From: Polyangium sp. 15x6
Lineage (GTDB): Bacteria; Myxococcota_A; Polyangia; Polyangiales; Polyangiaceae
Length of the DNA stretch: 64,000 nucleotides
Direction: 5' to 3'
NCBI RefSeq assembly: GCF_029960785.1
Contig: NZ_JASBQE010000007.1
Span: 124,001 to 188,000, forward strand
Part shown: one piece after another, positions 11,281 to 41,594 of the stretch
How the letters are laid out: each line of letters starts with the position of its first letter
Numbering within the stretch: position 1 is the stretch's first letter
Program-made: the position numbers and the translations under genes
Notes under the pieces: model-generated
Seen by the model: only the letters and a program-made list of their open reading frames with translations
What the model was told of the DNA's origin: nothing
Database searches by the model: none

Positions 11281-11325
11281 TGCGCGCTCGTGACTCCGGC
11301 CGCCCGATCCGGTAGGTATCGTGCC

Positions 11326-11607
11326 GTGGTGCAGAAGTACGGGATCCCCATCACCGACCTGCCGGGTCATTGCCTCGACGCCGTCGATGCGGCCGAACGC
11401 GTCCGCGCGCGCACGCTCGTCACGCGCGAGGGGCATCCGATCGCGGCCATCGTCCCGATGAGCGACCTCGACAAGATCGACCCGCCCGATCCTGCGGTCG
11501 ACGGCGTCGACCCGCTGCTCTCCTTGTGCGGCACGTGCCGCCACGACGAGTTCGTCGACTCGCTCCTCACCGACATCTCGCAGACCGGACTCTGGCGTCG
11601 GGGCTAG
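11326..11607 (+). CDS. Putative VapB/Phd-type antitoxin
   Basis: This small protein (93 residues from GTG 11326; an upstream GTG at 11290 would give 105) has the segment TREGHPIAAIVPMSDLDKI. That resembles the Phd/YefM-type N-terminal half, in which a residue strip contacts DNA and is followed by an acidic toxin-binding tail. GGTAGG lies about 8 bp before 11326. The stop is 5 bp before the PIN-domain gene, the normal antitoxin-toxin order. An antitoxin role is inferred from this layout; repeat operators were not found upstream. Confidence 0.65.
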   Translation: MVQKYGIPITDLPGHCLDAVDAAERVRARTLVTREGHPIAAIVPMSDLDKIDPPDPAVDGVDPLLSLCGTCRHDEFVDSLLTDISQTGLWRRG

Positions 11608-11612
11608 CGCGC

Positions 11613-12005
11613 GTGGGTTACCTCTTCGATACGGCCACGCTGGCCGAGGTCCTCCGCACGGTCCCTTCGCGGCTGCTCGTCAAGCGCCTCTCCGGCGTGC
11701 CCACCTCGGAGCGCTGGACGACGTCGATCACCGTCAGCCAGATCCTGATCGCCGCGCGCCGCACGAGGCACCCGAAGCTCATGCAGGACGTCATTCGTCT
11801 CGTCGCGGCGGTGAAGGTCGCGCCCTTCGACACGCTCGCGGCGCAGTCCTTCGCCAAGCTCCGCACGACCGTCGCGCCCGACGTCGACACCGACGACGTC
11901 ATGATCGCGGCCATCGCCGTCACGCACGACTTCACGCTCGTGACGCGCAGGCCCGCGGCGTTCCGCATCTATCCGCACCTGCGCGTCGAGGACTGGACGC
12001 TCTAG
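11613..12005 (+). CDS. PIN-domain protein (VapC-like) with degenerate active site
   Basis: The 130-residue protein has the PIN fold signature order: an FDTAT strand with D6, a TSITVSQIL segment, DDVMIAAIAV with D95, and LVTRRPAAF. VapC RNases normally use four acidic residues. Here the second is Gln (Q43 where Glu is expected) and the last (the Asp of the usual TRNxxDF) is Ala. RNase activity may therefore be lost or altered. GTG at 11613 lies 5 bp after the antitoxin stop. Confidence 0.75.
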   Translation: MGYLFDTATLAEVLRTVPSRLLVKRLSGVPTSERWTTSITVSQILIAARRTRHPKLMQDVIRLVAAVKVAPFDTLAAQSFAKLRTTVAPDVDTDDVMIAAIAVTHDFTLVTRRPAAFRIYPHLRVEDWTL

Positions 12006-12362: not shown

Positions 12363-12836
12363 GTGAACCACCTCGCCTCAGCCAAGCTCTTCGCCTCGGC
12401 GATCAACGTCGATTTCGACCCGACGTTCATCGCCCAGTTCATCCTCTTCACGACGTTCGTCGTCGTGCTGCGGCCCTTGCTCTTCGATCCGCTCCTGCGC
12501 GTGTTCGAGGAACGCGAGAAGCGCACCGAAGGCGCCAAGGTCGAGGCCCGCACGATGGACGCGAAGGCCGGCGACCTTCTCACGAGGTACGAGGCGGAGC
12601 TCGAGAAGATCCGGCGCGAGGCGAACGTCGAGCGCGAGAAGCTGCGCCGCGAGGCCAAGGAGCTCGAGACGAAGATCATGACCGAGGCGCGCGACGAGGC
12701 GGCGCGCATCCTCGAGACGGGCAAGGCGCGGATCGCCGCGGAGGTCGAGCAGATGAGGAAGGAACTGAAGGACGCGCAGCCGGCGCTCGCCGCCGAGATT
12801 GCGTCCCGGGTCCTCGGTCGGGAGGTCGGTCGATGA
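12363..12836 (+). CDS. atpF: ATP synthase F0 subunit b
   Basis: The product is 157 residues, the normal b-subunit length. One membrane segment (about 22-42, ending RPLLFDPLL) is followed by a long, highly charged coiled coil ([20 protein letters not shown] and onward) that forms the peripheral stalk. The start is GTG at 12363. Its stop overlaps the start of the second b-type gene (ATGA, 12833-12836), implying translational coupling. Confidence 0.93.
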
Positions 12837-13801
12837 TGTCGCGAAGGCTTGCGAAAGTCTTCTTCCCGCTCGCGGTGGGTCTCGCGGGCGCCTCGGCGTT
12901 CGCGCAGACGAACCCGAACCAGGGTTTGCCCGCGGGGCACCCGCCGCTCGACATCCCGCCCGGCCAGGCGCGGCCGGCGCCGGGGCAGATGCCCCGTCCG
13001 ATGCCGGGTGGCCAGCCGGGGCAGGCGATGCCGGGGCGCCCTGGTTTCCCGCCGGGAATGCAGCGGCAGCCGCAGCGCGCGCCTGCGCCGGCGCACGCCG
13101 AGGCGGGCGATCATGGCGGTGGGCACGGCGGGCATTGCCCCGGCCATGGCCCGCACGACGCCCCGCATTTCGACCAGATCAACTGGTGGCACGGCATGAT
13201 CGCCGTGAACAACGAGAAGGCGGTCCAGCCGGGCTTCGTGAACAAGCTCCTCTGGCGCTACGAGAACCACTCGGATCCCTGCGATCCGAAGAACGAGCCG
13301 CCGCCGTTCCTCGCGTCGATCCTGAACCTCGGCGTGCTCGGGTTCCTCCTCTACCGCTTCGGCAAGAAGCCGATCGGCGAGGCGCTCGTGAAGCGCAAGC
13401 AGTCGATCATGTCGGAGATCGACAACGCGGCGCGCCTGAAGAACGAGGCGCAGAAGCGGCTCGACGAGTACGAGAGCAAGTTCGAGCGGTTGGCCGAGAC
13501 GCTCGCCGTGGTGAAGGCCGAGTACGCGGCCCAGGCCGAGCTCGAGAAGAAGCACATCGTCGCCGAGGCCGAGGAGCGACGGGGGCGCATGCGCCGCGAC
13601 GCCGAGTTCCGCATCGAGCAAGAGCTCCGGACGGCGCGGATCGAGCTCATGCGCGAGGCGGTGCAGGGCGCGACGGCGGCGGCCGAGGACATCATCCGCA
13701 GCCGAACGGCGCAGGCCGATCTGGATCGGATGAGCGAGGACTACCTGACCTCGGTGCGTGAGGCGCTCGCTTCGAGCGGGCCTGCGGGAGGAGCGCGATG
13801 A
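12833..13801 (+). CDS. Second ATP synthase b-type subunit with signal peptide and Pro/His-rich extension
   Basis: This protein has 322 residues. Its C-terminal 165 residues are a normal b-type stalk: a membrane segment near 161-177 ([15 protein letters not shown]), then [13 protein letters not shown] and a coiled coil. The first 24 residues look like a cleavable signal peptide (ASAFAQ). They are followed by about 60 Pro/Gly/Met-rich residues and a His-rich block near 87-113 ([16 protein letters not shown]). A roughly 150-residue exported N-terminal extension on a b subunit is unusual. Four-base overlaps with both neighbours place it firmly in the operon. Confidence 0.9.
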
Positions 13802-14340
13802 GCAGCGAGACGATCGCCAGGCGGTATGCGCGCGCGGTCTTCGAGCTCGGCAAGGAGCTCAAGAATCTGCCCGTGATCGCGCGGGACCTCGCGGATTTCT
13901 CGGCGAGCTTCGAGAAGTCGGACGAGCTCCGGATGGTCCTTTCGAGCCCGCTCATCGCGGAGGAACAGCGTGAGGCGCTCCTCAAGGAGGTCGGCCAGCG
14001 CATGAGCCTCTCCGAGACCGCGCTCTCGACGCTCCGCTTGCTCGCCAAGCGCAGGCGCCTCTCGGCGCTGCCGGACATGGTCCGTCAGCTTGAGAAGCTC
14101 GTGGACGAGGACGCGGGCACGCTCCGCGCGACGGTCACGAGCGCCGGTCCGCTCGGCGAGAGCTACCTTGCGAAACTCCGCGCCGAGCTCGAGAAATCGA
14201 CCGGCCGCAAGGTCGTCATCACGCACGTGCAGGATCCCTCGCTCATCGCAGGCATCGTCACCCGCATCGGCGACCGGGTGATCGACGGGAGCGTCAAAGC
14301 CCGCCTCGAGAGCTTCCGCGAGTCGCTGCTCCGCACCTAG
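13798..14340 (+). CDS. atpH: ATP synthase F1 subunit delta
   Basis: The 180-residue product has the delta/OSCP features: an N-terminal helical domain beginning [15 protein letters not shown], and a C-terminal strand-rich segment around [17 protein letters not shown] ending [14 protein letters not shown]. It links the b stalks to the alpha/beta head. The ATG overlaps the previous stop by four bases. Confidence 0.95.
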
Positions 14341-14347
14341 TCGATAG

Positions 14348-16207
<1,860 letters not shown>

Positions 16208-16210
16208 GCC

Positions 16211-17146
16211 GTGCCTTCGCTCAAAGCGATCCGCAAGCGCATCACCAGCGTCCGCTCGACGCAGAAGATCACGCGCGCGATGAAGATGGTTGCTGGCGCG
16301 CGGCTCAACCGCGCCCAGCAGCGCATCACCGAGCTGCGCCCCTACGCCATCAAGACGCAGGAGGTGCTCGCGGCGATCACGGCCTCTGCGCGCGCGGCGA
16401 GTGCGCAGGATGGCGGGCAAGACGTCCCTGCGGAGGCCGACGTCGTCCTCGAGCGTCCGCTCCACCCGCTGCTCGTCGAGCGTCCGGAGCGCCGCGTGAT
16501 GCTCCTGATCCTCACGAGTGATCGTGGCCTCTGCGGCGCGTTCAACACGAACATCAACAAGCGCGCCGAGCGCGAGTGGAAGAGCCGCGTCGAGCAGGGG
16601 CAGGAGGTGATCATGAAGGTCATCGGCCGCAAAGGCCGTGACTACATGAGCCGCCGCAACGCTCCGAACCTCGGCTACCTCCCGGGCGTCTGGGAGAAGC
16701 TCGCCCTCGAGACGGCGCAGCGCGTGGGCAAGGAGATCCTCGATCCCTTCCTCAAGGGCGAGGTCGACAGCATTTACGTCATCTACAACGAGTTCAAGAG
16801 CGCGGTCACGCAGCAGGTCGTGGTCGAGCGCCTCTTGCCCGTTCGTCCGCTCGCGGAGGGCGAGCAGGCCGAGGGGACGTCGGCGACCGAGTTCATCTTC
16901 GAGCCGAGCCGCGAGGCGCTGCTCGACGTGCTCGCGCCGATGTACGTCGACATCTCGCTCCTGCGCGCGCTCTACGAGTCGATGGCGAGCGAGTTCGGCG
17001 CGAAGCTCACGGCGATGGACGCGGCCACGAAGAACGCGAAGGAAATGGTCGAGCGCTTGACGCTCGAATACAACCGCGCGCGTCAGGCTGCGATCACCAA
17101 GGAGCTCATGGAGATCATCGGTGGCAGCGAGGCGCTGAAGGACTAG
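16211..17146 (+). CDS. atpG: ATP synthase F1 subunit gamma
   Basis: The 311-residue product begins with the classic gamma N-terminus (LKAIRKRITSVRSTQKI, then AMKMVAGARLNRAQ), carries LTSDRGLCGAFN in the middle and ends with the conserved helix KEMVERLTLEYNRARQA. It forms the rotor shaft. GTG at 16211 follows the atpA stop by 3 bp. The genes expected next (beta, epsilon) are absent; a YciO-type gene follows instead. Confidence 0.96.
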   Translation: MPSLKAIRKRITSVRSTQKITRAMKMVAGARLNRAQQRITELRPYAIKTQEVLAAITASARAASAQDGGQDVPAEADVVLERPLHPLLVERPERRVMLLILTSDRGLCGAFNTNINKRAEREWKSRVEQGQEVIMKVIGRKGRDYMSRRNAPNLGYLPGVWEKLALETAQRVGKEILDPFLKGEVDSIYVIYNEFKSAVTQQVVVERLLPVRPLAEGEQAEGTSATEFIFEPSREALLDVLAPMYVDISLLRALYESMASEFGAKLTAMDAATKNAKEMVERLTLEYNRARQAAITKELMEIIGGSEALKD

Positions 17147-29644: not shown

Positions 29645-31030
29645 TCAGACCGCGGGCTCGGCCGCGCGCTTCGCCAGGTAATCGATCAGATCGATCTTCG
29701 AGATGATGCCGACGACCCGCGTGCCGTCGGTGACGATGGCGACGCGCGCGTCGTTCAGCACGCCCTTCAAGAGCTCGACCTTCGTGTCGACGGTGACCGT
29801 CGCGTACTCGCTCTCGATGAGCTCCTGGATATGCGAGTCGAGGCTGCCCTTGCCGCCGACGAGGTGGCGGAGCAGGTCGACCTCGTGCACGAGACCGCAG
29901 AGCTTGCCCTCGTCGACGATGGGGATCTGGCTGATGCCGTGGGTCTTCAGCTTGCTGATGACCTCGCCGACCCGGTCCTGCGGCCGCGCCGACACGACCT
30001 CGCCGAGGGGTTTGCCCGCGAGCAGATCACGCACCGTGCCGAGGCTCTTCTCCTCTTCGAGGAAGCCGTTCGAGCGCATCCAGTTGTCGTTGAAGATCTT
30101 GCCGAGGTACTTCGAGGCCGCGTCGGGCAGGAGGATCAGGATGTTCTCCTTCCGGCCGCTCTGCCGCGCGTACTTGATGGCGCCTGCGACGGCCGCGCCC
30201 CCGGATCCGCCGACGAACAGGCCCTCCAGACGCACGAGATCACGCGTCATGAGGAAGCACTCCTTGTCGTCGACGCGGATGACCTCGTCGATGATCTGGA
30301 GGTTCATCGTGCTCGGGAAGAAGTCCTCGCCGATGCCCTCGACCTTGTAGCTGAAGGGCTTCGTGATGCGGCCCGTCTTCACGAAGTCGTAGTAGAGCGA
30401 GCCCACGGGATCGACGCCGACGAGCTTGATCGAGGGCTTCTTCTCGCGGAGGTACTTGCCCGTCCCGCTGATCGTGCCGCCCGTGCCCATGCCTGCGACG
30501 AACACGTCGAGGTCCTCACCGCACTGCTCCCAGATCTCGGGGCCCGTCGAGAGGTAGTGCGCGCCGGGGTTCGAGGGGTTGTGGTACTGGTTCGCGTAGA
30601 AGCAGTTCGGCGTCTCTTCCGCGATGCGCTTGGCGACCTGGTAGTAGCTGCGCGGGTCGTCGGGCTCGACGGCCGTGGGACAAACGACGACCTTCGCCCC
30701 GAACGCGCGCAGGGTGTCGACCTTCTCCTGCGACATCTTGTCGGGCATCACGAAGATGCATTTGTAGCCTCGGACGGCCGCGTTCATCGCGAGCGCCGCG
30801 CCGGTGTTGCCGCTCGTCGCCTCGACGATCGAGCCGCCCGGCTTGAGCCCGGCCGCCTCGGCGTCCCGGATCATGTTGATGGCGACCCTGTCCTTGTGGC
30901 TCCCGCCGGGATTCAGGTACTCGCACTTGACGTAGATGTCGCTCTCGATCCCCTCGGTCACCTTGTTCAGCTTGACGATGGGAGTCCGACCGACGGCCTT
31001 GGTGATGTCACTCAGGGCGCCTCGCATCAT
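29645..31030 (-). CDS. Cystathionine beta-synthase-type PLP enzyme with C-terminal CBS domain pair
   Basis: From ATG 31030 the protein has 461 residues. The PLP-binding Lys is K46 in NPGGSHKDR, and the family blocks EATSGNTGAAL and AGMGTGGTISGTG follow. Residues about 335-461 form two CBS motifs (SARPQDRVGEVISKLKTHGI and TVDTKVELLKGVLNDARV). The CBS pair is what separates cystathionine beta-synthase from ordinary cysteine synthase; no heme-binding N-terminus is present. It condenses homocysteine or O-acetylserine with serine/thiol donors. The frame is open 36 codons upstream, but those residues are not family-like. Confidence 0.92.
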   Translation of the reverse strand: MMRGALSDITKAVGRTPIVKLNKVTEGIESDIYVKCEYLNPGGSHKDRVAINMIRDAEAAGLKPGGSIVEATSGNTGAALAMNAAVRGYKCIFVMPDKMSQEKVDTLRAFGAKVVVCPTAVEPDDPRSYYQVAKRIAEETPNCFYANQYHNPSNPGAHYLSTGPEIWEQCGEDLDVFVAGMGTGGTISGTGKYLREKKPSIKLVGVDPVGSLYYDFVKTGRITKPFSYKVEGIGEDFFPSTMNLQIIDEVIRVDDKECFLMTRDLVRLEGLFVGGSGGAAVAGAIKYARQSGRKENILILLPDAASKYLGKIFNDNWMRSNGFLEEEKSLGTVRDLLAGKPLGEVVSARPQDRVGEVISKLKTHGISQIPIVDEGKLCGLVHEVDLLRHLVGGKGSLDSHIQELIESEYATVTVDTKVELLKGVLNDARVAIVTDGTRVVGIISKIDLIDYLAKRAAEPAV

Positions 31031-31213
31031 GGGGGTCGTTTCTAGTAGGCCACGGGAACCGACACAAGCTTTGTCGGGCAGACCCGCACGCAGCGGCGCG
31101 GTTCGGTGGGCGTGGGGACGGATGGGAAAAAGTGCCACGATCGCCGGCGATTGGCCTTACCCTCGAAGGGTGGCCGCGCGCGGCCGAGCGCGCGAGGTGG
31201 CCCATCCCTCACC

Positions 31214-33208
31214 ATGGCGGATCGAGAGATACGCGCGAGATACGAGCTCCTTGGCGCCGTCCACGACGCGCCGGTGAGCCTCTTCCGCGCGCTCGATCGC
31301 GTCACGGGCAAGGCCGTCGCGGTCAAGATTCTCCGAGGCGCTTCGAGCGATGACGCAGCGCGTTTCGCGCGTGAGACGAGCATCCTCGCGACCCTCGATC
31401 ATCAGGCGATCGTGCGGTACCTCGACCACGGCACGACCGAGGCGGGCGAGCCGTTCCTCGTGATGGAGTGGCTCGACGGCGTCACGCTCGCCGAGCGCCT
31501 CGCCGAGCCCGCGCCCCTCGCGTTCTCCGAGTCGATCATCATCGGCACGCGCGTCGCCGAGGCGCTCGAGGCCGTGCACGCGCTCGGGATCGTGCACCGC
31601 GATGTGAAGCCGGAGAACGTGCTGCTCGTCTCGCGCCGGCCCGACGATGCGCGCCTGCTCGACTTCGGCATCGCCCGCGCTTCGAGCCCCGCGCGCTCCT
31701 TGACGTGCGACGGGCTCGTGGTCGGCACGTTCGGGTACATGGCCCCCGAGCAGGCGCGCGGCGCGGGTGAGATCGACGCGCGTACGGACCTCTTCGCGCT
31801 CGGCTGCCTGCTCTTCGAATGCGTCGCGCGGCGCAGGCTCTTCGCGGGCGCGACCGAGGGCGAGGTCCTCTCCTCGATGCTCGACACGGCCGCGCCGCGC
31901 CTCTCCACGATCGTGCCGGGCGTGCCGCCTGCGCTCGACGATCTCGTCGCGCGCCTGCTCCACGAAGACCCCGCGTCGAGGCCGCAGAGCGCGGCCGCCG
32001 TGCTGCGCGCGCTCGCCGCGATCGACGTCGACGAGCCCATCTCGGAGAGGCCTCCGGGCGCGCCGCCCGCGCTCACCGAGCGCGAGGTGCGCATGCGCGA
32101 CGTCACGGCCGCGCGGCTGTTCGGCGAGGCGTCTGCCTTGCTCCTCGACGGGCCGTTCGTGGGCCGGGAGCGCGAGCTCGGCGCGCTGCTCTCGGCGCTC
32201 GAAGCGTGCCTCGAAGAGGTATCGCCGCGCGCGGTGCTCGTGACGGGCCCGCCGGGCATCGGCAAATCGCGGCTCGGGCGTGAGCTCGTGCGCGAGGTGC
32301 GCCGACGCGGGATCACGAACATAGCGATCACGCAGGCGGGTCGCGTGGCCGTCGACGCCTCGGTCGACTGCGCCGAGGCGCTCTCCATGGCCCGCACCGG
32401 CCGCCCGGCGATCCTCGTCGTCGACGACCTCCAGTGGTGTGACGCGCGCGCTGTCGCCGCGCTCGGCGACGTGCTCTGCGAGCTCCACGATTGCCCGCTC
32501 TTCGTGCTCGCCCTCGCGCGCCCCGAGCTCTTCGACGAGTTCGGCCACACGGCCGCCGTCACGTTCACGCAGGTCATGCCGCTCGCGCCGCTCCCGCGCA
32601 AAGCCGCGGTCGAGCTCGCGCGCGTCTGGATCGGCGATCGGGCCGAAGCCGCGCGCGTCGACCGCCTCGTCGAGCGTGCCGCGGGCCTGCCGCTCGTGCT
32701 CGAAGAGCTCGCGCGCGCCGAGCGCGAAGGGCGTGGCGACGAGCTGCCGACCTCGGCGCGCGCGCTCCTCGAAACGCAGATCGGCGCGCTCGACGCCGAG
32801 GCGCGACGCACCTTGCGTGCGGCCAGCATCTTCGGCGACGTCTTCTGGTCGGGCGGCCTCTCGGCGCTGCTCGGCCACACGCGCACGACGACCGAGAGCG
32901 GGAGGCTCCGCATGCTCGTCGATCGGGGCTTCGTCGTGCCGCACGCGGGCAGCCGTTTTCCCGGCGAGCAGGAGCTCGCGTTCCGCCACACGCTCATGCG
33001 GGAAGCGGCCTACGGCATGCTCACCGAGGCCGATCGCGCGCTCGGGCACGCGCTCGCGGCGGCGTGGCTCACGCAAAAGGGCGAGCGGGACCTCATCCTC
33101 ACCGAGCATTTCCACCGCGCCGGGGATCGCGCCCGCGCCTCGCTCCACGCCGAGCGGGCCCTGCGGGCCGGGGACGTCCACTTTCGTCGGGGCCCGATCC
33201 GCTGGTAG
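31214..33208 (+). CDS. Ser/Thr protein kinase fused to STAND/AAA ATPase, lacking the long TPR tail
   Basis: The 664-residue protein has a kinase domain (VAVKILRG near 35-42, GIVHRDVKPENVLL near 127, LLDFGIARA, GTFGYMAPEQARG) followed by an ATPase: FVGREREL, Walker A GPPGIGKSR near 347, Walker B AILVVDDLQW near 400. It ends soon after the winged-helix-like region and so lacks the several hundred residues of TPR seen in the kinase at 251-4219. Start ATG 31214 is chosen because the kinase domain begins directly after it. Only 11 bp separate it from the radical SAM gene, so it may regulate or be co-expressed with that island. Confidence 0.92.
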   Translation: MADREIRARYELLGAVHDAPVSLFRALDRVTGKAVAVKILRGASSDDAARFARETSILATLDHQAIVRYLDHGTTEAGEPFLVMEWLDGVTLAERLAEPAPLAFSESIIIGTRVAEALEAVHALGIVHRDVKPENVLLVSRRPDDARLLDFGIARASSPARSLTCDGLVVGTFGYMAPEQARGAGEIDARTDLFALGCLLFECVARRRLFAGATEGEVLSSMLDTAAPRLSTIVPGVPPALDDLVARLLHEDPASRPQSAAAVLRALAAIDVDEPISERPPGAPPALTEREVRMRDVTAARLFGEASALLLDGPFVGRERELGALLSALEACLEEVSPRAVLVTGPPGIGKSRLGRELVREVRRRGITNIAITQAGRVAVDASVDCAEALSMARTGRPAILVVDDLQWCDARAVAALGDVLCELHDCPLFVLALARPELFDEFGHTAAVTFTQVMPLAPLPRKAAVELARVWIGDRAEAARVDRLVERAAGLPLVLEELARAEREGRGDELPTSARALLETQIGALDAEARRTLRAASIFGDVFWSGGLSALLGHTRTTTESGRLRMLVDRGFVVPHAGSRFPGEQELAFRHTLMREAAYGMLTEADRALGHALAAAWLTQKGERDLILTEHFHRAGDRARASLHAERALRAGDVHFRRGPIRW

Positions 33209-33219
33209 CATCGATCGGG

Positions 33220-35847
33220 ATGACGGACGCGTACGGCAAGCGGCAAGCTCTCCTCGTCGCCGTCGCCGGGAAGCCGGAATCGGCGCCGCGCGTCGTCTCG
33301 CCCCTCTCGCGCCTCGCGCGCGCCGCGCGCATCGTGCCCACGACCGCGGCCGAAGCGCGGAGGCGCGCCCCCGATCTCGCGGCCAAGCTCGCGGGTGATG
33401 CCGGCTGCCTCGTGCTCGGCGACGACGTGCCGGAAGAGGCCGCGCGCGCGATCGTCGCGGCGGCGCCCGGCGTGCGGATCGTCGTCCCTGCGGCGCTCGC
33501 CGAGGCGCTCCGGGACACGACTTCTCCCGACGTGATCGACGCGGGCGCGCTCGTCCTCGAACCGATGTTCCTCGCGCTCGTCGAGGAGGCGCGGCGTGAA
33601 TCGATGGGCGCGCTCGTGGGTTTGTCCGTGCGCTCGCCGGCGGGCCGCCGCGTGCGGCGCGCGGCCTCGACGCGCACGCCGTTCGTCGCGGGCGCGCGCA
33701 TCGCGTTCGAGCTTCCGGCCGACATTGCGGCGCGGATCGCCCGCCTCGCCGCGGGCCCGTTCGCGCTCGCGGACGCGGTCGTCCCGGGCGCGGCGCGCGG
33801 CCTCGAAGTCACCGAGGTCGTCGCGCTCCCGGGCGCGGATCGGATCGTCTGCCATGCGCGTTTCGGCGACGTCGTGGTCGAGGTCGACCTCGACGAGGAA
33901 ATGCAGGGCGAGGGCCCGCTCGAAGTCGAGGCCGTCATGCGGCGCGGCGCGCTGGTTTGTCGCTGGAGCAAGCAGGGCGCATCGCTCACGCGAAAGGCGC
34001 TCCTCCGGGACGGCCCCGTGCGGCTCGACGTCGTCCCGAGCCCCTTCGAGATCGCGACGCGCCACGCCCTTTCGGCGCCCCGTAGGGCCGACGCGCCCTC
34101 GCCGGCCTCGCTCGCCGGCGCCGCCGCGTCCGTCGCAATCGCGCAGGCGAGCCTCGAACGGTATGCGACGCGCGCGGCGAAAAGGCCGATCGAAATGGTC
34201 CTCGTGCACGTCCCGCGGTATCGCAACAGCTACGACGAGCTCGAATTGCCCTCGCTCGCGGCGGCGCGGCTCGCGGCGTTCACCCGCGGCCACGGTTTCT
34301 CCACACATGTCCACGATCTGCAAATCACGCACGCCGAAGACCGGCTCGATTGCTTCACGGACGATGCCGCCGTCGACGGCTGGCTCGCGGGCGCCGAGAG
34401 CCCCGCGGTCGCGGCGGCGGCCGAGCACCTGTGGAATTCCTTCGGCCCGGAGCTCGTGCGCGCCGCCGAGGCCGGCCGCCGCGCGCTGGTCGGGTTTTCC
34501 ATCGTCGATTACTTTGGCCATTTTCAGATGAACATCGCGGCGTGCCTCGCGCGGCTCGTCAAGGAGCGGACGGGTTTTCCGACGGTCCTCGGCGGCGAGC
34601 GGGATCAGGTCGACGGCGACCGCGCGCTCGGCACCGAGAAGACCTTCGATTACGTGGTCGACGGCGACGGCGAGATCCCGCTCCTCGGCCTCTTGCACCT
34701 CGAAGCCTACCGGGATCGCCGCGCGGCCGACATTCCCGGCGTCTGGTCCCGCGAGGGCGCGAGCGTCACGAAAAACAAACTCGTCCGCTCGCACCTCAAC
34801 GCCATGCCGCGCCCCGATTTCGACGACGTCCCGTTCGAGTTGTACCGCGGCAAACCCACCGAGCGCCTCCTCGCCGCCCTCGCGCAGGATGGCCTCCATC
34901 ATGGCGAGCCGGTCGAACCCTTCGCGTATCTTCCTTATGGATTCGTGAAGGGTTGCACCGCGAAATGCGAGTTTTGCAGCGCGAAGGAATGGCTCGACGT
35001 CCAGTCGCCCGAGAAGACCGCGGACGAGCTCATGGAGCTCTCCGAGCGCTACGGGGTCCGGGACTTCATGTTCCTGAACAACCTCGTCAACGTGAGCCCG
35101 CGCCTGCTCGAGCGCCTCTGCCGGCGGCTCGTCGATTCGAAGGCCGGCCTGCAATGGACCGACTCCTGCCGCCCCACCGACATCTCCGCCGAGCTCGCCG
35201 CGCTCATGCGTGAATCCGGCTGCCTCCTGCTCAATTACGGCGCCGAGAGCGGCAGCGACAAGATCCTCGAATTGATGAAGAAGGGCCTGCTCTCGCGGGA
35301 CATCATCGACACGCTGCGGAACACCCACAGGGCCGGCATCATCAACCGCGTCAATTTCATCGCCGGTTATTTCCACGAGACCGAGGAGGACGTCGACGCG
35401 ACGGTCCGGCTCGTGGAGACGCTCGCCGAGGAGATCGACATCGTCGGCTGCTTCCAGGGGTTTTACCTGTTCCCCGGCATGGGCGTCGACCCCGAGGCGG
35501 CCGGCATCGTGCTGCGCCCCGACTTCGACCGATTGAAGACGGGGCAGGTGACGCTCGCGTACGACGAGATCGGCGGATTGAAATGGGAGGACAAACGCGA
35601 CGTGATCGATGCGTCGCGCAATCGAATCCTCGCCCGCATGGGCGACCTCGACATCCGCACGCTCGACAAGATCAACGAATACGATCTCTTCTGGATGTCG
35701 CGGCGCTACGACAAGGAGACCGTGACGAAGTATCTGCTCGAAATCCCGCCGCGGCCGGTGGGGCGACGCAACCAAGCGGCGATACCCCCGGGCGGCCAGC
35801 GCGGGCGCGTGGACGTAATGCCCGGCGGATCGGGGTATCTCGGCTGA
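33220..35847 (+). CDS. Radical SAM protein with B12-binding-like domain and novel N-terminal region
   Basis: This protein has 875 residues. A poorly conserved Ala/Arg-rich N-terminal region (about 1-320) precedes a B12-binding-like Rossmann segment at about 325-480 (EMVLVHVPRYRNSYDELE, VLGGERDQVDGD, VDGDGEIPLL). A radical SAM core follows, with the canonical CX3CX2C cluster motif C579/C583/C586 in GCTAKCEFCSAKEW. Family features after it include NYGAESGSDKILELMKKG and VNFIAGYFHETEEDV. I do not see the DxHxxG cobalamin motif, so cobalamin use is doubtful. The substrate is unknown. ATG 33220 follows the kinase gene by 11 bp, and its stop lies 3 bp from the end of the convergent DUF483-like gene. 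Confidence 0.9.
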   Translation: MTDAYGKRQALLVAVAGKPESAPRVVSPLSRLARAARIVPTTAAEARRRAPDLAAKLAGDAGCLVLGDDVPEEAARAIVAAAPGVRIVVPAALAEALRDTTSPDVIDAGALVLEPMFLALVEEARRESMGALVGLSVRSPAGRRVRRAASTRTPFVAGARIAFELPADIAARIARLAAGPFALADAVVPGAARGLEVTEVVALPGADRIVCHARFGDVVVEVDLDEEMQGEGPLEVEAVMRRGALVCRWSKQGASLTRKALLRDGPVRLDVVPSPFEIATRHALSAPRRADAPSPASLAGAAASVAIAQASLERYATRAAKRPIEMVLVHVPRYRNSYDELELPSLAAARLAAFTRGHGFSTHVHDLQITHAEDRLDCFTDDAAVDGWLAGAESPAVAAAAEHLWNSFGPELVRAAEAGRRALVGFSIVDYFGHFQMNIAACLARLVKERTGFPTVLGGERDQVDGDRALGTEKTFDYVVDGDGEIPLLGLLHLEAYRDRRAADIPGVWSREGASVTKNKLVRSHLNAMPRPDFDDVPFELYRGKPTERLLAALAQDGLHHGEPVEPFAYLPYGFVKGCTAKCEFCSAKEWLDVQSPEKTADELMELSERYGVRDFMFLNNLVNVSPRLLERLCRRLVDSKAGLQWTDSCRPTDISAELAALMRESGCLLLNYGAESGSDKILELMKKGLLSRDIIDTLRNTHRAGIINRVNFIAGYFHETEEDVDATVRLVETLAEEIDIVGCFQGFYLFPGMGVDPEAAGIVLRPDFDRLKTGQVTLAYDEIGGLKWEDKRDVIDASRNRILARMGDLDIRTLDKINEYDLFWMSRRYDKETVTKYLLEIPPRPVGRRNQAAIPPGGQRGRVDVMPGGSGYLG

Positions 35848-35850
35848 GGT

Positions 35851-37197
35851 TTACCCGGACGAACCACCGAACGGCAAGAGCACGCCGAGCCGCGGCGAGG
35901 TTCGTCCGAGGCGACGTGTGAAGGAAGCGCCGCGCACCTCGAATGCGTCGTCCGTGACCACGAGCGTGCCGCCGCCCTCGAAAAGCGCTCCGAAAAGCTT
36001 CCGTGCGAAAAACTCGCCTTCGGAATCGAGCGGGGCCGGGGCGGGGAGGAAACGCGCGGATTCGAAGGTGATCGCGGCGCCGTCGATCCGGGCGCCTTCG
36101 AACGCGACGGCGCGCGCCTCGTCGAGGTAGAGCACGGGCCGCGCGAGCGCGCGGGTGAGCGGCTCGGCCTGCGCGCGCGGGAGCGAGGCGACGACGCGCG
36201 CGGCAGCAGAAGCGGCGCGCGCACAGCCGAACGAGCACGGGGTGAAGGGGACGACGCGCCGCACGGCCACGTCGAGCAGCGGATGAAAGGACGCGCCGAG
36301 CGCGCGGGTGCGCGCGGCCGTGACGTACACGAGCGCCGCGTTGTTCCGGCGATCGGCGAGCGCCACGAACGCGGCCGTGCAGCAGGGCGGATACCCGAGC
36401 AGCTCGCCGATCGCGGCGGCGTTCCGGGACGAACCTTGCTCCCAGAGCGAGGCCGCGCGCGCGGCGAGATCCGGGTCCGTCGAGAAAAACACGTGCACGG
36501 TCGCCTCGCCGGAGGCGCCTTCGATACGCCGGCCCGTCGCGCCCTCGACCGCGAGCGGAAAAGCCTCCGCGCGCGCGAGGGCCATCGCCGCGCCCGGATG
36601 CCGCGCGCGCACGTCGTCGAGCGAGCGAGCGGGCACCACCAGATAAAGCACGGGTTTGTCCCCGTTCGTGAACGCGACCTCCTCCAGGTTCTCGGACAAA
36701 CCCGGGACGGGCGCATCCATCGGCAGCGGCTCCGCGGCCTCGGCGGCTTCTTCCCAGGCGACATCGACGTCGAGCCCGATCGTGGCTGCTCGCTTGCTTC
36801 GCCCTGCGGCTCGCACGGCCGCTTCCCACGCAGAGACCTCGGGCGCGCCCACCTGAACACGCTCGTTTCCTGCGCGCACGCGCTCGTATCCGCGCCTGTC
36901 GTCGTGCACGAAGAGCTCGCGCCCGAAGCTCCGCGCCCGCGTGGCGAGCTCTTTTTCGTGCGCCTCCGCGAACGCGCCGCGGCGCAGGACCACGGCCTTC
37001 ACATCCCGCTCGAGGCACAAGCTCGCGCGGAAAAACCCTTCCTCGCCGCCCGAGGTCACGACGGCGGCGCGTGGGCTCCGGGCAAGCAGCGCCTCGATGC
37101 CTTCGAGGCCGGAGCCTTCGGGCTCGACGAGCACGTCCCCGTCCGCCGCCGCGAGCGAGACTTCGCCTTTGCCGAGGAGGATGACGGGCTGCCGCAC
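35851..37197 (-). CDS. DUF483-like protein with paired-cysteine motif, radical SAM island
   Basis: This 448-residue protein has no membrane segment. The C-terminal half holds the conserved-looking block ELLGYPPCCTAAFVALADRR with C272/C273, followed about 45 residues later by FTPCSFGC. A GYPxCC element is what I recall from DUF483-type proteins, hence the name; this should be verified. The cysteines could bind a metal or Fe-S cluster, or carry an intermediate. The N-terminal half has a Rossmann-like start (VILLGKGEVSLAAADG). It lies between two radical SAM genes, converging on one (3-bp gap) and diverging from the other (30-bp gap). Confidence 0.82.
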   Translation of the reverse strand: MRQPVILLGKGEVSLAAADGDVLVEPEGSGLEGIEALLARSPRAAVVTSGGEEGFFRASLCLERDVKAVVLRRGAFAEAHEKELATRARSFGRELFVHDDRRGYERVRAGNERVQVGAPEVSAWEAAVRAAGRSKRAATIGLDVDVAWEEAAEAAEPLPMDAPVPGLSENLEEVAFTNGDKPVLYLVVPARSLDDVRARHPGAAMALARAEAFPLAVEGATGRRIEGASGEATVHVFFSTDPDLAARAASLWEQGSSRNAAAIGELLGYPPCCTAAFVALADRRNNAALVYVTAARTRALGASFHPLLDVAVRRVVPFTPCSFGCARAASAAARVVASLPRAQAEPLTRALARPVLYLDEARAVAFEGARIDGAAITFESARFLPAPAPLDSEGEFFARKLFGALFEGGGTLVVTDDAFEVRGASFTRRLGRTSPRLGVLLPFGGSSG

Positions 37198-37227
37198 CCG
37201 GTGTAGCCTACGGGCTTCCGGGCCCCG

Positions 37228-40065
37228 ATGCGATCCTTGCCGCTCGTTCGCGAGGCGGGTGTGCCGCCCCTTTCTATGCCTGCCTCAGACGCGCGTGGTG
37301 AAGGCGCGCTCCCGGCGGCCGTCCTCAGCTTGCACAGCCACCGCGATCGGTCGTTCCTCGACGACGTGGGCCTGCACCACATCGCGGGCGCCATGCGCGC
37401 CGCGGGGCTCCCCGGCGACCTCGTCGTGGCGCACCTCCCGCGTGGAGCCGAGACGGGACCCAGCGCAGCCTGGGACGCGCTCGTCCGCGCGCTCCGCCCC
37501 TATCCGACGATCCTTTACGAGCGGCTCTGGAGCGCGGCGATCGTCGCGCGGCTCGCCCGCGAATTGCCGGACGCCACGTTCGTCCGTCTCGTCGGCGAGC
37601 ACGACCTCTCGGACGCACCGGCGAACCATGTTTGTCCGGCCGAACCGAAGGCCGTGGTCGCGCTCCTCTCCGCGCTCGCGGGCCGCGTGCTTCCGACGGA
37701 GCCGCTGCCGGGGTATGCGCCGCTCCTCCGGCCCGTGTACGCGACCGAGGACGCGCGCCCGCGGTTTCTGTCGTTTCCGATCACGGGCAACACGGGCTGC
37801 CCGTACCAGGCCGACGCGCGGGAAAACCCGCTCTATGCGGGCACGACGATCCCCGAAGGCGCGGGCCGCGGCTGCGCGTTCTGCACGACGGGCAACCATT
37901 ACGAGCACAAGTCGCGCGACGAGGCGCTCGCCTGGGCCCTCGTCCAGCTCCGGTATCTGCGGGCGAACGCGCCGGAGATCCAGGCGCTCGTCCTGCGCGA
38001 CCAGAACCCGTTTTATTACCTCACGGAGCTCGTCGAGGCGGCCGAGGCCGAGAAGCTCGGGCCCTTCACGTTGCTCATCGAGTCGCGCGCCGACTGGTGG
38101 CTCCAGAATACGACCCGCTTCACGCGCGCGCTCGCGTCCGCGCGGCGCTCGTCGATCCGACTCGCGCCTTTCCTCGTCGGCGTGGAGAACTTCTCCCAGC
38201 CCGAGCTCGATCGCTTCAACAAAGGCGCGACGCAGGAGACGCTCGTCCGCTTCCTCGAAGCGCTCCGCCGCTGGAACACCGAATACGCGCCCGCGATGGA
38301 CCTCTCGCACGCGGCCTTCGGCTTCATCCTGTTCACGCCGTGGACCACGATGGAGGACCTCCGGACGAACCTCGCCTGCATGAGGCGAACCGGCATGCAC
38401 GAGCTGCGTGGGCACCTGCTCCTCTCGCGCGTGCGGCTTTATCCCGACACGGCGCTCTACTGGCTCGCCGAGCGGGACGGCCTGCTCGCCGACACCTACG
38501 AGAACCCCGAGGACGACGCGAGCGCGCGTTATGGGTATCTGCCCGCGCGGCCGTGGCGGTTCCAGGACAAACCTGTGCACCGCGTCGCCGACCTCGCCGC
38601 CGCGTCGATCCGCCGAAGTGGGGGGCGCGACGAGCTCACGCTCTTCGAGACGCTCCTCGCGCTCGTCTCGTCCGCGGCCGATCCGGCGCTCCTTTCGGTC
38701 GACGACATCGAGCGCGCCATGGCCGCGAAGGGCCACGCGCGCGGACGCGACGTGGCCGGGACGAACGGCGTCGTCTTTCGAGATCCGCCGAGCGTCGAGA
38801 ACGAGGCGGCCGAGAAGAAACGCGAGCTCGCGCGGGCGCTCGTGAACGCGCCGTCGCTGCCCGTGGACCTGCCCGCGTTCGGGCTCGCGCTGCTCGACGT
38901 GAATGCGGACAAACATCACGTGGAGCTCGTGCTCGGGAAACGTGACCCCGTCGCGCGCCTCAGGCTCGGCTGGGACAAGGGCGCGGGCAAAGCCACGGTG
39001 GAGGTTTGTCCAAGCACACCCGAAGCCGCGCGATGGTCGAAGGCGTTCGAGGCGATGGCGGCGCGGCTCGTCGTGGCGACGACGAAAGAGCGATGGGAGC
39101 GCGCCTCGGCGATCGCAAAGGAGCTCGCGCGGCTGCCCCTCGGCGTGCCGCTCGGCTTCTTCCGCCAGATCGTCGCCGGCGTCGAGCCGCTCGAAGGTAT
39201 CGTGCGGACGGGCTTCGGCTGCAACCAGGACTGCGGCATGTGCTGGCAGGGCCGCGATTGGGGGCGCTACGGGCCCGAGCAGGTCGTCCGATGGATCGAG
39301 GACCTATGGGCGGCCGGCGCGCGTTCGCTCATCGTCTCGGGCGGCGAGCCCATGCTCGACCCGGAGCTCATTCGTTACGTGGAGCGTGCGCGCGCGCTCG
39401 GTTTTACCGGGGTGACGCTCGAGACGAACGCCATCCAGGCGAGCAAGCCGGGGTATGCCACGCGCCTCGTGAACGCGGGCGTCACGCAGGCGTTCGTCTC
39501 GCTCCATAGCGGAGATGCGACGGTGTCGGACGCCATCACGCGAGCGCCCGGCACGCACGAGCGTACCGTGCGGGGCATCCATGCGCTGCTCGACGCGGGC
39601 ATCCCGGTCGCGCTGAATGCCGTGACCACGGCCGAGGGCATCGACGAGCTCGGCGCGCTGCCCGATTTCATCCACGACACGTTCGGCCGCCATCCGAGGC
39701 TCCTGCACCTCATGATCTCGTACCCGACGATGCCGTTCGATCGTGCGCTCGTCCGGACGATCGTGCCGGATCCCGCGCGCCTGCGCGCCGCGCTTCGCAA
39801 AGCGCTGGATCGCGCGTTTGTCCTGGGGATCGTGGTGCGCGGGCTCGAGGGGCCGTGCGGCCCGCCTCTCTGTGCTTTCGACGCCGACGAACGGTTCATC
39901 TCGGGCAAACCCATCCCCGGGCCGGTCGAGTTTCGCCGGAAGGTCCCCGCGTGCGATCGTTGCGTGGTGAAATCGGCGTGCTTCGGCGTCCGGCACATGG
40001 ACGTCGAGCGCTTCGGGGAAACGTGTGTCGCGCCGATCGAGATGCGTTCGTCGCGGTCGACCTAA
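37228..40065 (+). CDS. Dual radical SAM protein, first half with CX24CX2C motif, second half CX3CX2C plus C-terminal cysteine cluster
   Basis: This protein has 945 residues in two enzyme-like halves. The first (about 30-440) has a Rossmann-like N-terminus and a radical SAM-type core with cysteines C191 (TGCPYQ), C216 and C219 (RGCAFCTTGNHYEH), a CX24CX2C spacing instead of CX3CX2C. The second (about 655-945) has the canonical C665/C669/C672 (GCNQDCGMCWQGRDWG), the SAM motif VSGGEPMLDPEL, and a C-terminal set of cysteines (GPCGPPLC, ACDRCVVKSACF) like a SPASM/twitch auxiliary cluster. A 200-residue linker joins them. Substrate unknown; peptide or natural-product modification is a guess. A strong hairpin and an oppositely oriented XRE gene follow. 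Confidence 0.88.
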   Translation: MRSLPLVREAGVPPLSMPASDARGEGALPAAVLSLHSHRDRSFLDDVGLHHIAGAMRAAGLPGDLVVAHLPRGAETGPSAAWDALVRALRPYPTILYERLWSAAIVARLARELPDATFVRLVGEHDLSDAPANHVCPAEPKAVVALLSALAGRVLPTEPLPGYAPLLRPVYATEDARPRFLSFPITGNTGCPYQADARENPLYAGTTIPEGAGRGCAFCTTGNHYEHKSRDEALAWALVQLRYLRANAPEIQALVLRDQNPFYYLTELVEAAEAEKLGPFTLLIESRADWWLQNTTRFTRALASARRSSIRLAPFLVGVENFSQPELDRFNKGATQETLVRFLEALRRWNTEYAPAMDLSHAAFGFILFTPWTTMEDLRTNLACMRRTGMHELRGHLLLSRVRLYPDTALYWLAERDGLLADTYENPEDDASARYGYLPARPWRFQDKPVHRVADLAAASIRRSGGRDELTLFETLLALVSSAADPALLSVDDIERAMAAKGHARGRDVAGTNGVVFRDPPSVENEAAEKKRELARALVNAPSLPVDLPAFGLALLDVNADKHHVELVLGKRDPVARLRLGWDKGAGKATVEVCPSTPEAARWSKAFEAMAARLVVATTKERWERASAIAKELARLPLGVPLGFFRQIVAGVEPLEGIVRTGFGCNQDCGMCWQGRDWGRYGPEQVVRWIEDLWAAGARSLIVSGGEPMLDPELIRYVERARALGFTGVTLETNAIQASKPGYATRLVNAGVTQAFVSLHSGDATVSDAITRAPGTHERTVRGIHALLDAGIPVALNAVTTAEGIDELGALPDFIHDTFGRHPRLLHLMISYPTMPFDRALVRTIVPDPARLRAALRKALDRAFVLGIVVRGLEGPCGPPLCAFDADERFISGKPIPGPVEFRRKVPACDRCVVKSACFGVRHMDVERFGETCVAPIEMRSSRST

Positions 40066-40067
40066 AA

Positions 40068-40101
40068 AAATCGGGGCCACCTTTCAGGGCGGCCCCGATT
40101 T
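40068..40101 (-). terminator. Intrinsic terminator of the XRE gene (also between convergent genes)
   Basis: AAATCGGGGCC (40068-40078) and GGCCCCGATTT (40091-40101) form an 11-bp perfect stem with a 12-nt loop. On the minus strand the stem is followed by a run of seven T (the A-run 40064-40070 on +). This is a textbook intrinsic terminator for the XRE gene ending at 40131. On the + strand the same stem may terminate the radical SAM transcript, but without a good T-run. Confidence 0.85.
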
Positions 40102-40130
40102 CGGGATCGGTCGAGATATGTGCCTCGGGA

Positions 40131-40469
40131 TCAGCGTTTACGGAGACCGAGCTGCACCTGGAGCTGACGGCGAAGCTTGCGGACCTGATCGGTAGGCAGC
40201 TTGCGAACGAGCTCCGCGGCGTGCGCGCGCTCGTCCTCCGCGGGGAACGTCAGCAAGTAGAGCGGCGGTAGCGAGAGCCCCCGGGCGAGCCGGGAGATCG
40301 TCTGGATCGTGATGGCAGCGAGCCCGTGTTCGACGCTGGAAAGGTGTCCTTTCGACAGCTCGCTCGCGTCCGCGAGCTCGGCCAGGGACATGCCTCGTTC
40401 CAGACGAAGCTCACGGATGCGGCCACCCACCTGCGTTGCAAAAGGATCCGGTACGGTTCGTCGCGGCAT
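40131..40469 (-). CDS. XRE-family helix-turn-helix regulator
   Basis: The 112-residue protein contains a standard Cro/XRE HTH at about 15-70 (GGRIRELRLERGMSLAELAD, then ELSKGHLSSVEHGLAAITIQT). A basic C-terminal helix (LPTDQVRKLRRQLQVQLGLRK) may mediate dimerisation. It converges on the dual radical SAM gene and has its own terminator, so it is an independent unit. Control of the radical SAM island is possible but not shown. Confidence 0.92.
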   Translation of the reverse strand: MPRRTVPDPFATQVGGRIRELRLERGMSLAELADASELSKGHLSSVEHGLAAITIQTISRLARGLSLPPLYLLTFPAEDERAHAAELVRKLPTDQVRKLRRQLQVQLGLRKR

Positions 40470-41057
40470 GGCGTTTCTTTCGGGACGTCCTCACGGACGA
40501 CCCCGCCGGCCCTCCTCGTGCCGGATCAAGTAAGTGGTTGATTGCTGAGCCTGGAACCTGGTTTGTCGTCGGGCGGGCGCAGGCCCCACGTCCACCCTGT
40601 TATGCTTTTGGGCGAGCACGACCCTACTATGCACTGTTCCGACGAACCTGGGCACCGGAAAATGCGGTTTCATTGCGATGACCACCCCCGAGACACGTTT
40701 GTCATAGGAGCTCATCGTTGTGAGACGTGTTACGTGTCGATGCATGCGCGCACGCTCCCCTCCCGAGACGAACGGCTCGCCTCGGCAACCGGCAGACGCG
40801 GGCAAAACGCGAGCGAACACGCGCGTCTTCCCGGAGATCTCGATGATGCGGCGCGTGCACACGATGACGCGCCGGCGGCTGTGACGTGATCGTTATGATC
40901 GGTTCGGCCGAACCCTCGCCCCCCACGCGAAGCGAAGGACGCACCCAAAGCGACCCCCTCTCGGCTTCGAGGGTTTCGTTCGAGACGCGAGGGGTGCGAA
41001 AAGAACGTAGCAGTCGGACCGGCGCTCCCGCGTCGGGGGCCGTGAATGGCGAGCGGC
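40470..41057. other. 588-bp gap without a supported gene
   Basis: The open frames here do not look like proteins. Local G+C is lower than around it near 40590-40740. It holds a 14-bp palindrome (40901-40914) beside the word TATGAT (40894-40899) and presumably the XRE promoter. No terminator or tRNA was recognised. Confidence 0.5.
40901..40914. repeat. 14-bp perfect palindrome GGTTCGGCCGAACC
   Basis: This symmetrical site in the non-coding gap could be an operator. It lies 2 bp after TATGAT on the + strand. No + strand gene starts just downstream, so its target is unclear. Confidence 0.6.
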
Positions 41058-41594
41058 TCAGCCGGTAGGGCCCGCCGAGGGGCGCGGCAAGATGCGGCGG
41101 AGGCGGCTCGCAATCTCCATGACGGCCGCCTCGCCCTTGACCGAGCCCTCGATGCGTCGATCCGAGGCGGTGCCGTCCTCGTTTGGCGCGACAAATAAGG
41201 GGATGAGCCGCGAGGTGTAACCGGCGACGGCGAGCCGCTCGGCGTCACGATCGAGGTCGAACTCCAGGATCCGCAGGCGCGGAAAGATGTCGTCGAGCTC
41301 CCCCTTCTCGGCCGCGTGATGGAACCTTTGGCAGGGCTCGCACCACGTCGCGCCCACGTAGACGAGTAGATCTCGTCCGTCCTTGCGAGCGCGCTCGATC
41401 TCGCGCCGCACGGACGTCGCGACGTCCTCCCCCTCGGTCGCACGGACCCACTCGACACGTCCCTTCGACGCGGCCGATGCTGCCGGCTTGGCTTCGGGTG
41501 TGGGAGTTTGGTCGTTCGAACACCCCGCCGCGCCCAGGCTCGCGGCCACGGAGAACAACAGCGCCGAATATTTCCACTTCGATGCGGCCTTCAT
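41058..41594 (-). CDS. Thioredoxin-family lipoprotein
   Basis: From ATG 41594 the product has 178 residues: a lipoprotein signal with lipobox LGAAGC (C25), a Pro/Ala/Ser linker and a thioredoxin fold with the redox motif W-C85-E-P-C88 in VGATWCEPCQRFH. The cis-Pro region reads SRLIPLFVAP. An envelope-anchored thiol reductase or oxidase role is inferred. The same frame is open much further upstream but lacks protein character there. It lies 13 bp downstream of the next gene on the same strand. Confidence 0.88.
   Translation of the reverse strand: MKAASKWKYSALLFSVAASLGAAGCSNDQTPTPEAKPAASAASKGRVEWVRATEGEDVATSVRREIERARKDGRDLLVYVGATWCEPCQRFHHAAEKGELDDIFPRLRILEFDLDRDAERLAVAGYTSRLIPLFVAPNEDGTASDRRIEGSVKGEAAVMEIASRLRRILPRPSAGPTG

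Follow-up and report, generated by a model that had tools for sequence, protein, structure and literature searches.

A radical SAM cassette with a DUF483-like four-cysteine protein in Polyangium and its association with His-Xaa-Ser peptide-maturation genes

Genes of the cassette and their conservation

The window analyzed in the present study is a stretch of 64,000 nucleotides from Polyangium sp. 15x6, the genome of which comprises 13.4 Mb in 275 contigs. Genes at 12363-17146 of the window, which by eye we take to encode ATP synthase, presumably indicate housekeeping surroundings. Three closely spaced genes encode two radical SAM (rSAM) proteins and a four-cysteine protein, and are flanked by a kinase gene and a regulator gene. 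Genomes, fetched loci, and contigs are referred to by our G, L, and C numbers.

31214..33208, plus strand: Ser/Thr kinase-AAA ATPase; genus-conserved neighbor, outside the system
33220..35847, plus strand: P0001, B12-type (class B-like) rSAM protein of 875 aa, assigned with Pfam and curated profiles
35851..37197, minus strand: P0002 (PPCC), DUF483-like four-cysteine protein of 448 aa with conserved C272, C273, C321, and C325
37228..40065, plus strand: P0003, dual rSAM protein of 945 aa, with a possible start at 37276
37315..38667, plus strand: dualN domain of P0003, an rSAM family with C191-x24-C216-x2-C219
39145..40065 (approximate limits), plus strand: dualC domain of P0003, HxsC/HxsC4-like rSAM with CxxxCxxC at residues 665-672 and more C-terminal cysteines
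40131..40469, minus strand: XRE-type regulator; genus-conserved neighbor and possible regulator, outside the system

An ORF check reproduced the open reading frames, their positions, and the gaps of the original prediction: 3 bp between P0001 and PPCC, 30 bp between PPCC and P0003, and 11 bp between the end of the kinase gene and P0001. A codon-usage gene caller written for this work called the same three genes, gave 37276 as an alternative start of P0003, and missed the XRE gene. The three genes had been described as a packed set, and the packing is correct. However, PPCC is encoded on the minus strand, and its gene converges with that of P0001 and diverges from that of P0003; therefore, the three genes do not form a single operon.

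The cassette was retained in all six Polyangium genomes with the order and orientation of P0001, PPCC, and the dual rSAM gene found in the window, and PPCC was 82-90% identical in the other five. The same gene order was found in G089 and G090, in which dualN was not followed by a detectable dualC domain; in G103, the three genes were present but rearranged. With P0002 as the query (E<=0.001), 38 of the 183 genomes from the order contained PPCC, the six Polyangium genomes among them; a profile search of a phylum sample detected it in 70 of 377 genomes. Relatives of P0001 (E<=1e-60) occurred in 11 of the 183 genomes, and all 11 contained PPCC, dualN, and HxsA.

The kinase and the XRE regulator had also been counted as members of the island. 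Their positions are correct and both are conserved in the genus: the kinase adjoins the cassette in 6/6 Polyangium genomes, in each of the five other Polyangium genomes, 64-112 of the 112 XRE residues align at 98-100% identity, and Pfam confirmed the kinase and HTH_3 domains. However, the kinase is not beside the cassette in L053 or L055 (L054 ends at that point), and kinases belonging to the same broad cluster are some kb from the cassette in L059 and L060. The two genes are genus-conserved neighbors only.

Radical SAM domains and the four-cysteine protein

P0001 matched the Pfam Radical_SAM family above its gathering threshold (2.8e-18, 67.1 bits against 29.5), with a CxxxCxxC motif at residues 579-586. 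The B12-binding match was under the threshold (27.7 bits against 32.1), and no DxHxxG motif was present. The best curated matches, at residues ~411-738, were RiPP cobalamin rSAM families, namely ApyD (NF050148) and the TIGR03975 C-methyltransferases. P0001 differs from both: its scores of 94.7 and 82.6 bits are far under the cut-offs of 750 and 281.85, and it carries an additional N-terminal part of ~370 residues with no recognized fold. Against PDB sequences, P0001 gave weak matches to solved rSAM proteins (best 3.3e-05).

P0003 matched Radical_SAM over two stretches (2.2e-24, 86.9 bits against a gathering threshold of 29.5). Its best curated matches were HxsC4 and HxsC, both under the cut-off; the score against TIGR03977 was 61.7 bits (cut-off 267.9). 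DualN lacks CxxxCxxC and has CX24CX2C instead, the three cysteines of which were invariant in 23/23 aligned rows. The dualN profile was related to the B12-type rSAM protein of the cassette (E 1.4e-19), its curated relatives were weak (CUAEP, ArsL, and HpnJ), and a comparison with PDB sequences returned nothing at E<0.01. P0001 and dualN may be described as candidate radical enzymes of a class-B-like kind, and dualC as a putative HxsC-like rSAM domain. Three dualN-like ORFs with no PPCC within 8.5 kb were observed in L126, a contig titled Elusimicrobia. We also considered a domain common to dualM, the P0001 N terminus, PPCC, HxsD, and the N-terminal regions of two rSAM families from the islands; this candidate was dropped at an hhalign probability of <=1.0%.

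P0002 matched DUF483 (PF04467) with 19.5 bits, under the Pfam gathering threshold of 25. Among the PPCC family rows, 27 of 29 matched DUF483 at E<=0.1 (best 2.1e-07), and two viral relatives exceeded the gathering threshold (26.2 and 27.0 bits). The family carries the motifs G-x3-G-x-P-x-C-C and P-C-x3-C, and the four cysteines were invariant in two alignments (29/29 rows of A2 and 28/28 of A3); one sequence in the first set of 45 lacked the second cysteine. Outside the cysteines, the family is divergent, with a mean column identity of 26%.

The AlphaFold models of PPCC were confident (mean pLDDT 87 for the whole protein and 85 for the domain; pTM 0.87). In VIA, residues ~165-282, the first part of the domain, may resemble 2guk (Z 9.7 and rmsd 3.0, with 98 of 111 residues aligned; the next rows had 6.2 and 4.0), the title of which gives an unknown function; by Foldseek, 2guk had an E of 0.033. 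We take 2guk to be DUF2023. In Bacteroidetes, DUF2023 is described as the partner of flavodoxin in an iron-limitation operon (PMC10434189), and this no more than hints at a redox role. Foldseek searches of the models against PDB and BFVD returned nothing at E<=0.001, and the PPCC profile found nothing among PDB sequences at E<0.01. Residues 18-108 of P0002 were placed by VIA among Rossmann-type dehydrogenases (Z up to 8.0), which may reflect a common arrangement. Pfam detected no methyltransferase in P0002, and a comparison with annotated phages gave no match. The four cysteines are predicted cluster ligands, and we tentatively suggest, at a strength short of an expectation, that PPCC holds an Fe-S or metal center.

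The halves of P0003 frequently occur as separate proteins in relatives, where PPCC is joined to dualN or to dualC. We found dualN-PPCC fusions with or without dualC as well as dualC-PPCC fusions (L032, L047, L057, L058, L064, L066, L069, L070, and also G368), with other orders in L048 and L049. When one peptide pattern from dualN served as the sole query, 36 loci were obtained, 33 of which were titled myxobacteria or deltaproteobacteria. PPCC was also present in 25 of the 36, and 9 of the 11 without it were under 12 kb long. The three genes look like one system, as several relatives carry PPCC and the N-terminal rSAM domain of P0003 in a single protein. The original prediction of one biochemical system was borne out by these fusions, by the dualN-only loci, and by retention throughout the genus; in the neighborhood check, homologues were co-located in relatives. 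We are highly confident that the rSAM proteins and PPCC form a unit. PPCC would be a non-catalytic partner subunit with a metal or Fe-S center formed through its four conserved cysteines, and may work with dualN, to which it is fused in some species.

Co-occurrence and co-location with His-Xaa-Ser genes

The His-Xaa-Ser (HXS) system owes its name to sequence data; it was reportedly described in 2011 by Haft and Basu with the components HxsA, HxsB, HxsC, and HxsD (TIGR03976, TIGR03977, and TIGR03978). The part of a later paper that deals with HXS names the system and calls its maturation putative (PMC9062424). In the order examined, the leader shared by HxsA precursors spans ~50-65 residues, includes an LPSF-like motif that is conserved, and is followed by QHCS(HGS)n; most precursors end in W directly after the repeat. 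A paper search for the repeat HGSHGSHGS gave no match. Repeat ORFs of the (HGS)n type were present in 6 of the 40 first-fetched 20-kb loci. In L088, an HxsA-type precursor with 53 His-x-Ser repeats was observed at 11077-11751.

An HxsA-type precursor, HCS(HGS)nW, was found in 61 of the 183 genomes (profile, E<=1e-7), and its distribution followed that of PPCC: 37 of 38 PPCC genomes against 24 of 145 others (Fisher 2.5e-21, on raw counts that ignore kinship and genome size). The sole PPCC genome without it, G105, is 84% complete. HxsA was present in 35 of 37 dualN genomes, with G002 and G004 as the exceptions. HxsB behaved similarly, in 36/38 PPCC genomes against 31/145 others (2.8e-17, raw counts with kinship and genome size ignored), in 24/25 genera with PPCC against 18/58 without, and in 66/70 genomes with PPCC against 60/307 without in the phylum sample. 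For a control rSAM family, TIGR03942, the likewise uncorrected counts over the cut-off were 3/38 and 6/145 (p 0.28); at the looser E<=1e-40 they were 7/38 and 10/145 (p 0.04), a weak excess that counts against the association.

Seven HxsB genomes had no HGS-type precursor, and all seven lacked PPCC (G003, G115, G123, G145, G146, G162, and G166); the fetched loci of six of them contained HRS-type repeats. Conversely, 24 of the 61 HxsA genomes lacked PPCC in the single-sequence search, of which the profile recovered it in G082, G086, and G174, and 19 had neither PPCC nor dualN at the thresholds used. Therefore, HxsA does not need the cassette. No HxS repeat was found in the fetched stretch around HxsB in 16 of 36 PPCC-positive genomes, and HxsD was absent there in several PPCC-positive genomes. 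Among PPCC-negative HxsB loci, 8 of 25 (fetched from 31) contained an HCS(HGS)nW ORF.

Several relatives place the genes together. PPCC and HxsA were 1.0-1.8 kb apart, start to start, in G173, G177, G178, and G179; the nearest pairs were at 4.4-4.5 kb in G181 and G050, and at 11-30 kb in G130, G180, G010, and G052. G001 and G050 had dualN and HxsA 1.0 and 1.6 kb apart, respectively. In G173 and G177, PPCC, hxsA, and a relative of P0001 (54% identical) lay within ~6 kb, with one in-frame TGA reported in the G173 copy of the P0001 relative. In contrast, the distance was 1.4 Mb in G149, a Polyangium genome of two contigs, in which the cassette is thus unlinked to the HXS core. In the remaining PPCC genomes, the two genes were on different contigs, and draft assemblies often leave linkage open.

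We mapped seven regions, chosen because of a known PPCC; PPCC and HxsB were on one contig in five. The rSAM counts refer to stop-to-stop ORFs, with motifs in parentheses: 20 (25) in 68 kb in G181, 15 (19) in 74 kb in G180, 15 (18) in 55 kb in G050, 11 (16) in 51 kb in Minicystis rosea (G130), and 11 (16) in 39 kb in G253. Each of these five stretches contained one HxsA-like ORF, HxsB, HxsD, an HxsD-like gene, HxsC4, PPCC, and dualN. No HxsA was found in the fetched stretches of G264 and G368. In L037, HxsB, HxsC4, an HxsD-like protein, and an HExxH peptide beta-hydroxylase exceeded their curated cut-offs, and HxsD, at 49.7 of 50, fell just short. The M. rosea genome paper notes 70 over-represented radical SAM members, and its section on them names no such cluster (PMC8436480). 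ORFs with many CxxxCxxC motifs, often ~25 residues apart, were seen near the HxsB gene in L078 (12462-13517) and L079 (4642-7071).

In the host genome, HxsB exceeded its cut-off of 370 at two loci, both off the contig of the window (L071, 547.6 bits; L072, 596.4 bits), and HxsD exceeded its own (60.5 of 50). Contig C211 (L071) carries the HXS core and a precursor of the form HCS(HGS)14 W. Another HXS locus, of the classical kind, lies on contig C19 (L072, 8110-11547) and comprises HxsB (596 bits), HxsC (396 bits), and an HRS-type repeat ORF. A ClpB-like ATPase gene borders the HXS cluster in 6/6 Polyangium genomes (L071:2018-4651 with matching genes in L073-L077; ~877 aa; 924 bits in L071, under the ClpB cut-off).

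The original prediction recognized no precursor ORF nearby, and our scans of the window agree. Runs of at least three His-x-Ser units were absent from all of its frames, and the small ORFs at 30900-31300 and 40000-41200 included no clear precursor; those matching within the genus overlap known genes or sit at 40470-40860. This last stretch, upstream of XRE, is genus-conserved in frames of both strands and, thus, seems more like conserved DNA than a gene for a peptide. It could be regulatory DNA or an unrecognized small gene. However, a precursor exists in trans: the sole precursor-profile match of the host genome is on another contig.

The role of the cassette and alternative readings

It had been stated that no pathway was known to have this gene set. 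This was not borne out, since HXS peptide maturation, to which the set is tied, has already been described. The host and its relatives share with that system an HxsB over the cut-off and a His-Xaa-Ser repeat precursor. The differences are that the cassette adds a B12-type rSAM protein, a CX24CX2C rSAM domain, and the four-cysteine PPCC; that the myxobacterial precursor is HCS(HGS)nW rather than of the HRS type; that up to 20 rSAM ORFs surround it in relatives; and that the cassette is in trans in Polyangium. No HxsD match was found in P0001-P0005, and no HxsB match among the matches listed. Since no HxsB, HxsC, or HxsD equivalog was found in the cassette, we filed it as an associated module and not as part of the HXS core.

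We consider it fairly probable that the rSAM-PPCC unit belongs to HXS peptide maturation, and, by a narrower preference, we favor the cassette as an accessory module of a myxobacterial HXS variant. A ribosomal HxsA-type precursor, encoded on another contig in the host, would be processed by HxsB, HxsD, and HxsC-like rSAM enzymes, and the cassette would add further rSAM steps on the HxsA peptide, acting in trans in the host. Both the peptide as the substrate and the type of reaction are what we infer from the genes present.

An unlikely alternative is that the cassette matures a different, unseen peptide or a small molecule, the HXS islands being general rSAM natural-product clusters with HxsA as one of several products. 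The unlinked cassette in Polyangium, the number of rSAM ORFs per island, and the HxsA genomes with neither PPCC nor dualN are consistent with this. However, hxsA is closely grouped with PPCC and the P0001 relative in G173 and G177, and the small ORFs beside the cassette offered no clear precursor for another product.

The pairing of rSAM and DUF483 proteins is already known. Thermus phages Cumys and phiMa carry an rSAM + DUF483 module for which nucleic-acid modification was proposed, and the same source points to a deazapurine DNA-modification context in cyanobacteria (PMC11437467). As in the cassette, an rSAM gene is paired with a DUF483-domain protein there, and DUF483-rSAM fusions are noted; in contrast, the genes are those of phages, DNA modification is suggested, and the account of the module mentions neither HxsA nor dualN (PMC11437467). 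Viral loci with PPCC relatives point in a similar direction: an rSAM ORF was in the flank in 37 of 44 (L137-L180, several of which are near-identical), upstream of the DUF483 gene and on the same strand in each listed case. When two viral DUF483 proteins were scanned, the one in L138 had a methyltransferase domain over the Pfam gathering threshold and the other MetW under it; a helicase gene follows in L157.

In these viral neighborhoods, the pair apparently occurs with no HxsA. They indicate that PPCC is not specific to peptides, and modification of DNA (PMC11437467) stays a rival reading. Under this reading, PPCC/DUF483 and an rSAM enzyme act as a pair in nucleic-acid modification, the target of the myxobacterial cassette is DNA or RNA, and the cassette has genomes and neighborhoods in common with HXS only because the two accumulate where rSAM genes are abundant. 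We regard this as improbable for the cassette, given the HxsA precursor in all but one of the PPCC genomes, the distance of 1-2 kb between PPCC and hxsA in four, the HxsC-like half of P0003, and the absence of a methyltransferase match in P0002.

The original prediction listed the cysteine protein as a substrate, carrier, or partner, of which the partner is the best reading. PPCC as a substrate or covalent carrier rather than an accessory subunit would fit its conserved cysteines and its fusion to rSAM domains, but is very unlikely in view of its confidently folded model, its divergence outside the cysteines, its fusion to different rSAM domains, and the methyltransferase domain in one viral protein.

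Returning to PPCC as a partner subunit, its viral relatives beside rSAM ORFs suggest that it is probably a general rSAM partner. A broader proposal is more speculative, and we advance it tentatively: PPCC/DUF483 may be a general Fe-S-bearing rSAM partner subunit of viruses and myxobacteria, which in Myxococcota is paired with a new CX24CX2C rSAM family in unusually rSAM-dense clusters in which a His-Gly-Ser repeat peptide may be heavily modified. Through the cassette, an rSAM family is defined whose motif cysteines are widely spaced, and the unknown domain DUF483 gains a testable role as an rSAM partner. Moreover, the stretches in which 11-20 rSAM ORFs surround a single repeat precursor, one of them in the complete genome of Minicystis rosea DSM 24000, may be expressed and analyzed.
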